From contig JAFZQT010000099.1 in NCBI GenBank assembly GCA_017620235.1, positions 1 to 40,238 on the forward strand: DNA of 40,238 bases, in the 5' to 3' direction. Source of the DNA: Butyrivibrio sp. Lineage in GTDB: Bacteria > Bacillota > Clostridia > Lachnospirales > Lachnospiraceae. The notes under the pieces were generated by a model that was not told where the DNA came from, ran no database searches, and saw only the letters and a list, made by a program, of their open reading frames with translations. Positions 5,615-12,305 of this stretch are shown here, in pieces (positions within the stretch are counted from its first letter, which is position 1; each line of letters begins with the position of its first letter). A program made the translations under genes and the position numbers.

Positions 5615-6121
5615 TCATCTACGCAAACTTATATGGTTATCAATCTTATCAAAATATCCTGTGATCTTGCTAAGCGCTTCGTCTACGGAACATTCTACAT
5701 CAAAGCCTGCGATGGCTCTTTTTTCAAGCTGCTTCTGTGCCTGAAAGCCGATTTTCTTGCATACAAGACTTCGACAATCAGCGATAAGTTCCACCTTCCT
5801 TTGGGCTCCGTCGCTACCGCTGCAACCATTTGAGGGGCCGTTGCAACCTGACGGTTTAGTCTCGGCGCCTGTATCAGCGCCCGCTCCACCGCAGCCTGCT
5901 GCCTCACCACCGCATCCGGTGCCGGAGCCACATGCGCCGGCAGAGCCACAGTTCACTCCCGAAGATGAGCCGGCACCGCCAATTTCTTCCGAAAACTCAC
6001 GGTACTCTTTTTCTTTGTAGTCGGTTCCTTCAACTTCATAGATATGGAAACCTGTCGCGGCACCAAAGCCAAGGTCTACGTCCCTGGCATTTGACGTTGC
6101 GACAGCAATTAAATATGACAT
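5615..6121 (-). CDS. NifX/NafY-family protein with Cys/Gly-rich insertion
   Basis: The start is placed at 6121, where GAGAGG precedes the ATG at normal spacing and the protein opens as MSYLIAVATSN; the longer frame to 6136 adds only five residues. Residues 1-45 (IAVATSNARDVDLGFGAATGFHIYEV) and 107-160 match the two halves of the dinitrogenase iron-molybdenum cofactor binding fold (NifX, NafY, NifB C-terminus). Between them is a low-complexity Gly/Ser/Cys insert, roughly residues 48-105, with Cys at 58, 64, 70, 77, 93 and 100; Cys 116, 121 and 144 lie in the fold itself. The family carries cofactor precursors. The insert suggests a metal or cluster binding role, which is inference. Last gene of the operon. 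Confidence 0.85.
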   Translation of the reverse strand: MSYLIAVATSNARDVDLGFGAATGFHIYEVEGTDYKEKEYREFSEEIGGAGSSSGVNCGSAGACGSGTGCGGEAAGCGGAGADTGAETKPSGCNGPSNGCSGSDGAQRKVELIADCRSLVCKKIGFQAQKQLEKRAIAGFDVECSVDEALSKITGYFDKIDNHISLRR

Positions 6122-6166
6122 CGCATTACCTCTCACAAACTGCGCAGCCAGTGCTCAGTTCTGTTT

Positions 6167-7465
6167 TTAGTTGAATCTCTGTGAAGCTACCGTATAGATA
6201 TCTTCGATAAGTCTGATTCCGCCTTCATAGCCAACAATCGCATCGTTGAGAACGATCTTATCCTTAACGGGCCATGATATATTGAGGAAATTACCCTTAA
6301 GATCCTCAGTTACTTCCTTGTCATAATATCCACCAAGAACAAGAGGATAGCCGTGGTAATCATGATTCTTTATCTCTTCATGAATCTTGTAACCGTCAGT
6401 CTCAAACACAACCTCAGCTTCAAGACCGTAGTTGAGTTTCTTGAACTCTTCAGTTATTGCTTCTCTGTACTCCTTAGGAGTATCGTCTGTAACGAACTGC
6501 TTTGCGGGTACAAGTCCAAGATCGTTTGTAAGGAACTTGGTTATACCAAGTGCATACTGAGCATCCGCAACAACAGAGAACTGTTTGTTGATTACTCGGT
6601 TCTCAAGGAAAAGATCTGCAAATCTCTCGATGAGGTAATAGTAATAACTCTCATGCTGTGTAATAACATCCTCAACCTTCTTCTCATCCACTCCCGCAAA
6701 CTTTCCTACTTCGCGTAGGAACTTGCTCGTCTCGAACGCACCGATAGGAAGTGTGCTGTAATGAAGATAAGGAATACCAAGCTTTTTCTCCATCTTCTTT
6801 ACATTCTTAACAGAAACCCAAGGAGAAATAAGAAGATTGAATTCAGCAGATGCAATCTTATCTATATTCTTTATTCCTCTCTGATAGCCGAAGATCGTGT
6901 TGGGTGTAAGCCCAATCTCCTCAATGAGCTTTTCAAGTGCTCTAAGATTTCCGAGCCAGTAAAGATCCTGATAAGGAACGTCAGCCCAGATATTTACAAG
7001 GCCTTTCTCTTTCTTATCAGTCTTTTTTGCATACTGATCTATAATCGCATCGATTATCTGCTCATGTCCCTTATAATTGTTTCCCTTAAATCCTGCTGTA
7101 GGAGCATAGATTACAGGCTTCTCAGCATCTGCAAATTCAGATACTACTTCGCCCGAATCATCACCCACGATCTCAGGAATACAACCTGTAAGAACAACAT
7201 ACAGATCGGCATCGATAACCTTAAGTGCATTGTCAATTGTTGAATGAAGCTTTTTTACACCGCCAAATACAACGTCCTTCTCGTTGATACTGGTACAAGG
7301 AAAAATATTCGGCGAAAAATATCCGCTGCTCCCATTTCCATCGGAGAGCTTCTGAGCACATCCCGGACCTGAATGAAGGATGGGAATAGCTCGTTCTATA
7401 GCCTGAACTGTCTGCATAGCGCCCAGTGCACATTTATATCTTTGTTTATCAAGTAACTTTGCCAT
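6167..7465 (-). CDS. Nitrogenase-like component 1 beta subunit (NifK-like)
   Basis: 432 aa, shorter than NifK (about 520) because it lacks the long N-terminal arm: the first P-cluster-type Cys is residue 12 (YKCALGAMQTV). The second is Cys 36 in HSGPGCAQ and the third Cys 95 in TGCIPEIVGDD, matching the three NifK P-cluster cysteines in order and context. Later landmarks are PTAGFKGNNYKGHEQ (substrate-channel region of oxidoreductase/nitrogenase component 1) and VVADAQYALGITKFL. It should form an alpha2beta2 complex with the NifD-like protein and bridge the P-cluster. It starts 19 bases after nifD-like. It is not BchB/ChlB or CfbD, because the partner retains cofactor ligands and a nifB gene is present. 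Confidence 0.9.
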   Translation of the reverse strand: MAKLLDKQRYKCALGAMQTVQAIERAIPILHSGPGCAQKLSDGNGSSGYFSPNIFPCTSINEKDVVFGGVKKLHSTIDNALKVIDADLYVVLTGCIPEIVGDDSGEVVSEFADAEKPVIYAPTAGFKGNNYKGHEQIIDAIIDQYAKKTDKKEKGLVNIWADVPYQDLYWLGNLRALEKLIEEIGLTPNTIFGYQRGIKNIDKIASAEFNLLISPWVSVKNVKKMEKKLGIPYLHYSTLPIGAFETSKFLREVGKFAGVDEKKVEDVITQHESYYYYLIERFADLFLENRVINKQFSVVADAQYALGITKFLTNDLGLVPAKQFVTDDTPKEYREAITEEFKKLNYGLEAEVVFETDGYKIHEEIKNHDYHGYPLVLGGYYDKEVTEDLKGNFLNISWPVKDKIVLNDAIVGYEGGIRLIEDIYTVASQRFN

Positions 7466-7484
7466 TTATATCAGCCTCCGTGAA

Positions 7485-10858: not shown

Positions 10859-11233
10859 TTACTTACCGTTTATTTTGTTCATTTCCTGAAGTAGTTTGAG
10901 GTATCCGTCAAGCCTGTGAAGTGACAATCTGACTTCACCCGGCATTTCAAATGCCGCGATTCCTCTCTCCTCAAGCTCGCTCCTTGCTCCGTCGCCAATC
11001 CTCGCAGCAAGAACAAAATTGCAATCAGATACTCCTTCTACTCCTCTTTTTAAATTAGCGGCGTCATGGTGCCCTCCGTTACATACAGGTTCCACAAATC
11101 GCTGCTCAATTTCTTCATAATTACCGTTTTCATCCACATCTACTATCAGAAAACTCTCAGCTCTTCCAAAGTGCTGATCTACATATCTGTTGTCGGTAGA
11201 TGCGAGTGCAACTCTATAAATTGCTTTATCCAT
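10859..11233 (-). CDS. NifX/NafY-type cofactor-binding protein
   Basis: 124 aa, a single dinitrogenase iron-molybdenum cofactor binding domain: [26 protein letters not shown] followed by [10 protein letters not shown] and a C-terminal [21 protein letters not shown]. The sequence resembles the C-terminal domain often fused to bacterial NifB. Here it is a separate gene whose start overlaps the nifB-like stop by eight bases, so the fused NifB arrangement appears split. It probably holds or delivers the NifB product. There is a second, Cys-rich homologue at the operon end. Confidence 0.88.
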
Positions 11234-12098
11234 GTGAAAAAGTATTCCTTACGTTTAATCTGCTCTGATATACAAGTTTGCTGTACTCAGAAACTCCGGG
11301 GACTCCAACTGCATCTGCTCTGCAGTGTGCGCAATGCCTGAACACTTTTATATACTTCTCGGCATCGCTTCTTGCCTTTTCTATCTGCTCACAAGTGGGC
11401 TTGGGAATATCTTTTAACTGATGTTGCGGTATTAGCGGGATTATATTGTAAATAATCGCTCCCAATTCTCTTACCGTCTTTGCGATCGTGCTGATGTGTT
11501 CGTCATTTATTCCCGGTACCAAAACCGTATTTATCTTGACGGTAACACCTGCATCAGCAACCTTTTTGATTCCCTTTAGCTGATTCTCTATGAGTATCTT
11601 TGCGCCTTCTTCTCCGTATATCTTCTCGCCGTGCCAGATGATATATTCGTTGAGCTGTGCCTCTATCTTGGGATCTACTGCATTTACCGTGACGGTTAAA
11701 GTATCAATTCCAACATTTATAAGCTCATCAGCTCTCTCATACAAAAGAAGTCCGTTGGTGCTCATACATTTAAGTAGCTCGGGATGACTCTCTCCGATCT
11801 TCGCAAATGTCTCAAATGCATAGTCCGTTGCCAAAGTATCTCCGGGACCTGCAATTCCTGCAACCTTGATATTAGGAACAAAACCAAGTGCCTTATCAAT
11901 AAACGTATTTGCTTCATCGGGAGTTATTATCTTGGACGTTACTCCGGGGCGCTGTTCAACGTCATTTATTGTTCTGTCGCAGAATCTGCATGCAATGTTG
12001 CATCCCGGACTCACCGGAAGATGGATTCTGCCAGCGTTGAACTTGCATCCGCCAAAGCACGGATGATTTTTTTCAAGTTCTTCATACGTTTTAGCCAT
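11226..12098 (-). CDS. NifB-like radical SAM cofactor maturase
   Basis: 290 aa, the short NifB form without a fused NafY domain. The radical SAM cysteines are Cys 33, 37 and 40 (PGCNIACRFCDR). GIAGPGDTLA near 81-90 is the NifB SAM-binding segment, and RHCAHCRADAVG (Cys 256, 259) is the NifB C-terminal signature. The family inserts carbide and fuses two [4Fe-4S] clusters into the 8Fe NifB-co. The N-terminal segment reads HPCFGGCKFNAGRIHLPV; the His-rich EKAHHYFAR stretch typical of NifB is replaced, with a Cys at 18. No nifE or nifN accompanies it, so the cofactor may be used without that scaffold. Confidence 0.9.
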   Translation of the reverse strand: MAKTYEELEKNHPCFGGCKFNAGRIHLPVSPGCNIACRFCDRTINDVEQRPGVTSKIITPDEANTFIDKALGFVPNIKVAGIAGPGDTLATDYAFETFAKIGESHPELLKCMSTNGLLLYERADELINVGIDTLTVTVNAVDPKIEAQLNEYIIWHGEKIYGEEGAKILIENQLKGIKKVADAGVTVKINTVLVPGINDEHISTIAKTVRELGAIIYNIIPLIPQHQLKDIPKPTCEQIEKARSDAEKYIKVFRHCAHCRADAVGVPGVSEYSKLVYQSRLNVRNTFSHG

Positions 12099-12143
12099 TT
12101 TTAATCTCCTACAATTATTTTCATGGAACTTACGCTCTCACTT

Positions 12144-12305
12144 CTAGCTATATCTCTGCTTACGGCTTGTCTCAATCTGAGTCACTTTGCCATCGTGAAC
12201 CGTAATAGTGACTGTGCCATACTGTATACTCTTAATGCTCTCAACTACTCCTTCCAAAACTTTTTCATCGATCTCTGTGATCTTTTGTATCTCTGCCTTT
12301 GCCAT
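12144..12305 (-). CDS. yezD: YezD-like small protein (DUF2292), first gene of the nif-like operon
   Basis: A 53-aa reading frame on the minus strand from ATG at 12305 to TAG at 12144, with GAGGAG eight bases before the ATG. The product MAKAEIQKITEID... continues to VLEGVVESIKSIQYGTVTIT (residues 16-35) and VHDGKVTQIETSRK, the DUF2292/YezD pattern (IxYGxVxIxxxDGxVxxIE). The function of the family is unknown; as far as I recall it occurs near sulfur assimilation genes. It is 45 bases upstream of nifB-like and downstream of a promoter, so it leads the operon. A single compact beta-hairpin-like domain is expected. Confidence 0.82.
   Translation of the reverse strand: MAKAEIQKITEIDEKVLEGVVESIKSIQYGTVTITVHDGKVTQIETSRKQRYS

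Follow-up and report, generated by a model that had tools for sequence, protein, structure and literature searches.

The stretch of DNA analysed here, the 40,238-nucleotide contig JAFZQT010000099.1 of a Butyrivibrio sp. (assembly GCA_017620235.1; "the window" below), carries a nitrogenase-like operon, nfl, of eight minus-strand genes, yezD-nflB-nifX-nflH-cysKL-nflD-nflK-nifX2, and raises the question whether such an operon serves nitrogen fixation or the acquisition of sulfur. We consider it probable that the answer is sulfur, in the form of an assimilatory reductive C-S bond cleavage by NflHDK, the product of which is captured by the pyridoxal phosphate (PLP) enzyme encoded in the slot between nflH and nflD. 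An initial annotation, made from the letters of the window alone, had described eight co-directional genes with small gaps, and this layout holds, with intergenic distances of -8 to 45 bases. The genes are:

12144..12305, minus strand: yezD, OscA-like small sulfur-starvation protein (NF033785, 4e-7, under the cut-off)
11226..12098, minus strand: nflB, NifB-type radical SAM cofactor maturase (NifB structure 7bi7, 315 bits)
10859..11233, minus strand: nifX1, NifX-like cluster carrier (PF02579, 1.6e-19)
9994..10842, minus strand: nflH, nitrogenase-type Fe protein (TIGR01287, 464 bits, exceeding the cut-off; 1cp2 477 bits versus MarH 291)
8980..9975, minus strand: cysKL, slot PLP enzyme of family A, CysK-like with altered loops (PALP, 2e-71)
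7485..8954, minus strand: nflD, MAR-like catalytic alpha subunit (PF00148, 3.8e-71)
6167..7465, minus strand: nflK, MAR-like beta subunit (PF00148, 2.4e-72; MarK 367 bits, next 82)
5615..6136, minus strand: nifX2, NifX-like with a Cys/Gly-rich insert (profile match)

MAR stands for methylthio-alkane reductase. The gene scans covered a part of the window's genes, one of them 10 open reading frames.

Kinship and active site of the Nfl components

Among proteins with solved structures NflD is closest to MarD, with 296 bits against 118 for the best nitrogenase, and NflK is closest to MarK by the still wider margin listed above. In a tree of alpha subunits (64 chosen rows, a quick search, with a long-branch warning) the window clade (23 rows, support of 99 in the Shimodaira-Hasegawa-like approximate likelihood ratio test, SH-aLRT) and the MarD side (13 rows, 96) are sister groups, joined at 100 and separate from NifD. 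On SH-aLRT support only, and under the same long-branch warning, NflD thus falls outside the MarD clade. The initial annotation had called the operon probably sulfur-directed and a branch related to MAR or distinct from it, and had proposed such a phylogeny as a check; the structure matches and the sister position support a sulfur-directed, MAR-related but distinct branch, as does the repeat shared with cysK-patB-metBC that is described below.

In MarD numbering, all 81 window-clade sequences share the P-cluster cysteines 66, 91, and 158 and the cofactor ligand Cys270, and the loop-I pair Arg428-His429 is equally invariant along with Trp195, Phe199, and His375. In NflK, C12, C36, and C95 match up with the three P-cluster cysteines of MarK, and 78/78 sequences retain them. 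The annotated P-cluster and cofactor Cys/His ligands are therefore present, but the histidine is the MAR loop-I histidine and not nitrogenase His442, and nitrogenase Gln191/His195 are replaced by Trp/Phe. According to a passage of the MAR structure paper, Arg428 and His429 might be a hallmark of MAR, and His194 lies around a proposed S2B site (PMC12552129). Within the 64-row set the Arg-His pair is also found in all nine MarD sisters, three other MarD-clade rows, and eight of nine window-clade sisters, and it is missing from the NifD and alternative-nitrogenase rows (7/7) and from the rows of the second-pair type (8/8) introduced below.

Some of the observations weigh against a simple equation of Nfl with MAR. 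MarD His194, which in the 64-row set is restricted to the MarD clade (4/4), is replaced by Ile throughout the 81 window-clade sequences, so that NflD keeps only Trp195 and His375 of the three S2B-site residues, and MarD Cys73 has become Gly (65 sequences) or Ser (16); because of these two changes MAR chemistry may not carry over. In 11 of the 13 more distant Nfl rows of the same set the loop-I His occurs without the Arg, so the His alone is not specific to MAR. Finally, the Fe protein of the operon is not MarH-type. The higher of the two structure scores of NflH belongs to Clostridium pasteurianum NifH (1cp2), the protein exceeds the nifH equivalog cut-off (TIGR01287, 1.2e-139), and in a tree of 27 chosen Fe-protein rows, again with a long-branch warning, a 100/100 branch splits MarH-type from NifH-type with NflH on the NifH side. 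With MAR-like NflDK and a nitrogenase-type NflH, the component set is chimeric. Such a pairing also occurs outside the window clade, since locus L126 has an alpha subunit in the MarD clade and yet a NifH-type Fe protein.

The maturase NflB belongs to the NifB family (1.7e-78), although its score of 264 bits is under the cut-off of 344 and it is devoid of the NifX-like part; its best structure matches are NifB, as listed. The sole match of YezD is the weak one to the sulfur-starvation protein OscA. The Cys/Gly-rich insert of NifX2, which is present in relatives too and varies in length, possibly makes this protein a metal or cluster carrier.

The genome to which the window belongs (2.70 Mb, 86% complete) contains one full NifH-type gene and four PF00148 component-1 genes, namely nflDK and one divergent second pair, which is situated on another contig and has no nifH of its own. 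The annotated lack of nifE and nifN thus stands for the canonical genes, but a further divergent PF00148 pair has to be added: at the stated completeness no NifEN maturase was found in this genome, only that pair, and the nifE model scored 170 against a cut-off of 505. The second D protein keeps Cys270 and lacks Trp195, His375, and the Arg-His pair, so that it may serve as a scaffold or as an enzyme of another kind. The second pair (L009:9675-12445, own genome C8) follows an ABC ATPase gene that appears broken when judged by eye, and pairs like it adjoin the main operon in other loci.

The proteins nearest to NflD are 98-99% identical and come from genomes titled Butyrivibrio (among the best 80 of 233 relatives). 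NflD from loci in Treponema (Spirochaetota) is 87-88% identical to that of the window, which suggests transfer between phyla. A more distant locus (L010) is borne on plasmid pTS2 of Treponema saccharophilum and comprises two DK pairs, metY, cysK, and an internal IS30-family transposase, the latter suggesting mobility. Carriage by phage was considered and rejected, the pTS2 relative being without a match in the phage collection.

The PLP enzyme between H and D

The initial annotation regarded the insertion of a PLP synthase between H and D as unusual and proposed a survey of its frequency. In the best 80 of the 233 relatives, to which all slot counts refer and which are 85-99% identical in NflD, a PALP gene is located directly upstream of nflD in 73 loci, and in 45 of the 48 loci having approximately 10 kb of upstream sequence. 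The arrangement is thus the rule in this clade, and an association of nitrogenase-like genes in general with cysteine synthase was already printed in 2012 (PMC3464626). A stricter first pass over 81 loci (the 80 and pTS2) placed the slot gene between H and D in 64 of the 70 loci that have nflH no more than 2.5 kb away; among the six exceptions, L028 does carry the slot gene. The seven of 80 loci in which it is missing weigh against the reading favoured here, though two of these end just upstream and two have a CysK-like gene further downstream.

The slot enzyme is not the housekeeping cysteine synthase. Of the 73 slot loci, 56 also carry a canonical cysK within the stretch (41 of the 45 with approximately 10 kb upstream), and in a tree of 66 chosen rows (quick search, long-branch warning) the slot enzymes form two divergent families, A in 51 loci and B in 22, both outside the canonical CysK clade. 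The window CysKL scores under the cysteine synthase cut-offs (cysK 311 versus 351 bits, cysKM 325 versus 344 bits). Both families keep the PLP lysine, the TSGNTG loop, and the glycines of the phosphate loop, and both are altered at the MSxER segment, QFxNPANP, and GIGAGF, loops which line the CysK pocket.

On an NflDK tree (81 rows, quick search) the slot labels A, B, and none (five rows) need 12 changes, some of which are plain absences. Label B alone needs 7 changes, 6 of them forced by starred branches, and well-supported sister loci differ in slot family (L023/L029 at 98, L051/L060 at 99). As read from this tree, the slot position is kept while its occupant has been swapped repeatedly between the two families. 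Because the position is conserved and the occupant exchanged, we infer that the slot enzyme acts on the product of the reductase. That a CysK-type enzyme is tied to the operon, as annotated, is supported by the 73 of 80 loci and by the shared repeat; its capture of sulfide or thiol is putative. In raw counts not adjusted for relatedness, B loci are poorer than A loci in patB (3/22 versus 29/51) and in genes of the metBC/metY family (4/22 versus 32/51).

Sulfur genes and a shared inverted repeat

Upstream of the nfl operon lie cysK, patB, and a metB/metC-like gene, and downstream a metal-dependent-hydrolase-like gene followed by an importer. The cysK, patB, metB-like, and importer genes, which the initial annotation had named correctly as judged from profile matches, and the two repeats are:

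16018..16033, minus strand: operator-like inverted repeat TTATA-N6-TATAA, 100 bases before cysK
14982..15917, minus strand: cysK, canonical cysteine synthase A (TIGR01139, 450 bits, cut-off 351)
13669..14916, minus strand: patB/malY-type C-S lyase (TIGR04350, 445 bits, cut-off 340)
12445..13650, minus strand: metB/metC-like cystathionine enzyme (PF01053, 7e-140)
12422..12437, minus strand: operator-like inverted repeat TTATACCCTGCTATAA, 116 bases before yezD
903..4012, minus strand: cystine/polar-amino-acid type ABC importer with substrate-binding protein, two permeases, and ATPase, perhaps associated (TcyN-type ATPase, 325 bits, under the cut-off)

For the metB/metC-like gene no NCBIfam model was above its cut-off among the 25 shown of 53. 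The gene at 4262-5245, between operon and importer, encodes the hydrolase-like protein, which has a lipoprotein-like start and scores 55 bits, the cut-off being 144.

TTATA-N6-TATAA is present at two places in the window, heading the cysK-patB-metBC operon and the nfl operon, and exact matches to TTATANYCYRCTATAA are found in the own genome at these sites before cysK and yezD and nowhere else. A search with TTATANNCYRCTATAA in nine related genomes gave 15 matches in six Butyrivibrio genomes, all 15 at the regulon: six each ahead of cysK and of yezD, and three ahead of an importer operon that a carbon monoxide dehydrogenase (CODH) gene follows. About 3.4 matches were expected in the nine genomes from base composition, and a reversed-pattern control gave 5. 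Since the pattern was drawn from known sites, what counts as independent is that it occurs nowhere else in the six genomes; the remaining three of the nine had no match, a point against the favoured reading. The repeat counts cover the own genome and these nine relatives, and we propose the repeat as a shared operator of the nfl and cysK-patB-metBC operons. A link to a flavodoxin as electron donor, based on a one-mismatch repeat ahead of a flavodoxin gene in the own genome, was dropped: up to one mismatch there were 11 sites against 4 in the control, so that such sites look like chance, and the relatives are without an exact site outside the regulon. The Rfam scan of the window gave no RNA element at the gathering score.

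The repeat-linked importer (L011:15877-20504 and matching places in L012 and L013, followed by the anaerobic CODH gene) has a binding protein that, as scanned in L011, is of the SsuA family but remains under the cut-off (129 versus 163.5 bits). In 10 of 50 genomes CODH exceeded its cut-off. The six nearest Butyrivibrio are among these and have it on the contig of nflH, at a distance of approximately 7-14 kb; the own genome, which is 86% complete, gave no CODH match.

Whole-genome searches covered the hosts of 50 of the 80 loci (for CODH, 49 and the own genome). The sulfite/nitrite reductase domain PF01077 is missing in 41 of these 50, and the search of the own genome, at its given completeness, gave no match to it. 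In 150 genomes of the window's family, sampled as one per genus, the domain is present in 0 of the 10 with window-type NflD (E below 1e-250, own genome included) versus 70 of 140 others (Fisher p=0.0017), and when every Nfl match at 1e-60 is counted in 3/19 versus 67/131 (p=0.0056). Two points tell on the other side: nine of the 50 hosts do carry PF01077, and these statistics ignore phylogeny while many of the genomes are incomplete. Among neighbour families in the 80 loci (open reading frames of at least 85 amino acids, each family named from one scanned representative) were a NifS-type desulfurase in 20 loci, just under the cut-off, Rrf2 in 20, LysR in 26, a TauC-type permease in 27, and a weakly serine-acetyltransferase-like family in 9; SsuA/TauA-type importers are near the nfl locus in subsets of loci. 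The PF01077 pattern and these families fit organisms needing already reduced sulfur, which argues against a sulfite-releasing role.

Elsewhere in the window are a glutamine synthetase gene (28171-29517) and two neighbouring PAP2-family genes (19950-21201; 189 and 191 amino acids), perhaps a tandem duplication.

Proposed function and its alternatives

In the mechanism that we favour, NflB would build the [Fe8S9C] precursor cluster for NflDK, probably carried there by the NifX proteins, and NflH would supply NflDK with electrons, using ATP. NflDK would reductively cut the C-S bond of an organosulfur compound to give a thiol or sulfide, which the slot enzyme would join to a serine-derived acceptor such as O-acetylserine, and the CysK, PatB, and MetB/C-type enzymes, behind the same repeat, would pass the sulfur into cysteine and methionine. 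A more specific proposal, in which the nitrogenase-type enzyme supplies reduced sulfur to organisms that have no sulfite reductase by converting a substrate other than the MAR thioethers (possibly a sulfonate) fully to sulfide or thiol, and the exchangeable PLP synthases choose the amino-acid product, we regard as doubtful.

A plain methylthio-alkane reductase acting on the MAR substrates would send methanethiol to methionine, the slot and MetB-like enzymes merely helping, for instance by cystathionine synthesis that moves methionine sulfur to cysteine. MAR is indeed the nearest characterised relative, the Arg-His pair is conserved, and metB-like and patB genes adjoin the operon, but the separate NflD clade, the Ile in place of His194 in 81/81 sequences, the CysK-derived slot enzyme, and the lack of MetY among the scanned window genes make this unlikely, as does the nitrogenase-type Fe protein, though L126 in the MarD clade has one too. 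Quite unlikely in our view is an enzyme, perhaps working with the second DK pair, that takes a sulfonate or sulfite to sulfide and so replaces sulfite reductase. It would agree with the 0 of 10 family genomes having the reductase domain, with the SsuA-family and TauT-type importers near subsets of loci and, in three Butyrivibrio, following the shared repeat, and with the existence of a nitrogenase-like relative, isethionate reductase (PMC11423573); on the other hand the SsuA matches are under the cut-off, the window importer is cystine-type, and IsrD, unlike NflD, is without Cys275 and two P-cluster cysteines (PMC11423573). Isethionate reductase itself was rejected, as the ligands of NflD differ from those printed for IsrD (PMC11423573).

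That Nfl is an unusual nitrogenase which needs no NifEN to fix N2, a claim made for Endomicrobium and Heliophilum, is very improbable. NflH exceeds the nifH equivalog cut-off, as do matches in 50 of 50 host genomes, related gut nifH has been counted as possibly diazotrophic (in part of PMC4995403), and a NifEN-free fixer has been claimed (in a passage of PMC9147875). Against this, NifD was found in 0 of 50 hosts at 1e-60 and none was above cut-off in the window, Gln191/His195 are Trp/Phe, the histidine ligand corresponds to that of MAR loop I, and the operon belongs to a sulfur-gene regulon; a canonical nitrogenase was rejected for the missing NifD and because Gln191, His195, and His442 are not kept. 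CysK is a partner of the Rrf2 repressor CymR in Bacillus. A slot protein acting as regulator or partner, and not as an enzyme on the product, would be in line with the Rrf2-represented family, which in 20 of 80 loci lies at a median distance of approximately 3.4 kb from the start of nflD. We find it hardly credible, since the catalytic lysine, TSGNT loop, and phosphate-loop glycines are kept in both families and catalysis accounts better for the swapping of two divergent enzymes.

The favoured C-S cleaving system can be set beside the known ones. With MarBHDK of Rhodospirillum rubrum (PDB 9fmg) it shares DK proteins homologous over most of their length, the P-cluster cysteines, Cys270, Arg428-His429, Trp195, Phe199, His375, and a NifB-type maturase; it differs in the sister-clade position of NflD with Ile for His194 and Gly/Ser for Cys73, in the nitrogenase-type Fe protein, in the CysK-like gene between H and D, and in the NifX proteins. 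Passages of Dos Santos 2012 report nitrogenase-like alpha-subunit genes with Cys275 beside genes for cysteine synthase or O-acetylhomoserine (OAH) sulfhydrylase; the H-D slot, the exchanged families, the shared repeat, and the Arg-His ligand were not found in those passages (PMC3464626). The nitrogenase-like isethionate reductase shown by Morimoto 2024, IsrBHDK, likewise serves sulfur assimilation with a radical SAM partner, but according to the passages on it IsrD retains one P-cluster cysteine and is without Cys275, where NflD has all, IsrB is closer to BciD than to NifB, and sulfite release is proposed (PMC11423573). The pTS2 locus (NZ_AP025290.1) has an NflD 60% identical to ours, the order nflB-nifX-nflH, and cysK upstream; it differs by having no slot gene, metY ahead, and two DK pairs, of which one adjoins a NitT/TauT-like importer. 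Passages of other work mention nifK/nifD with cysteine synthase in a 2026 paper on termite spirochetes (PMC13067680) and Mar-like genes linked to sulfur gene clusters in a preprint (PMC10418091). In the titles, abstract starts, and some passages of the open literature, subscription papers being outside this scope, no account was found of the nfl operon in Butyrivibrio as a sulfur system.

On this evidence nfl is a second MAR-type branch, whose active-site pocket differs from that of MAR, and its natural set of exchangeable PLP partner enzymes may reveal the product of the reductase. It also means that some gut "nitrogen-fixation" genes may be sulfur genes. Passages of Igai et al. 2016 place Lachnospira- and Butyrivibrio-type faecal nifH among candidate nitrogen fixers, with the strains noted as untested, and name Lachnospira multipara ATCC 19207 and Lachnospiraceae bacterium 3-1 among the closest relatives of human faecal nifH (PMC4995403). 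Both (L071 and L044) have window-type NflD with the Arg-His pair, and from the NifH identity of 97-98% reported there (PMC4995403) those faecal sequences would belong to the nfl operon. In a 2019 rumen study, 23% of 501 genomes were credited with nitrogenase on the basis of NifH, and rumen N2 fixation was at the same time cited as negligible (PMC6776011). The nfl operon offers a testable candidate explanation of this mismatch, and nifH-based counts of diazotrophs in gut and rumen need to take the flanking genes into account.

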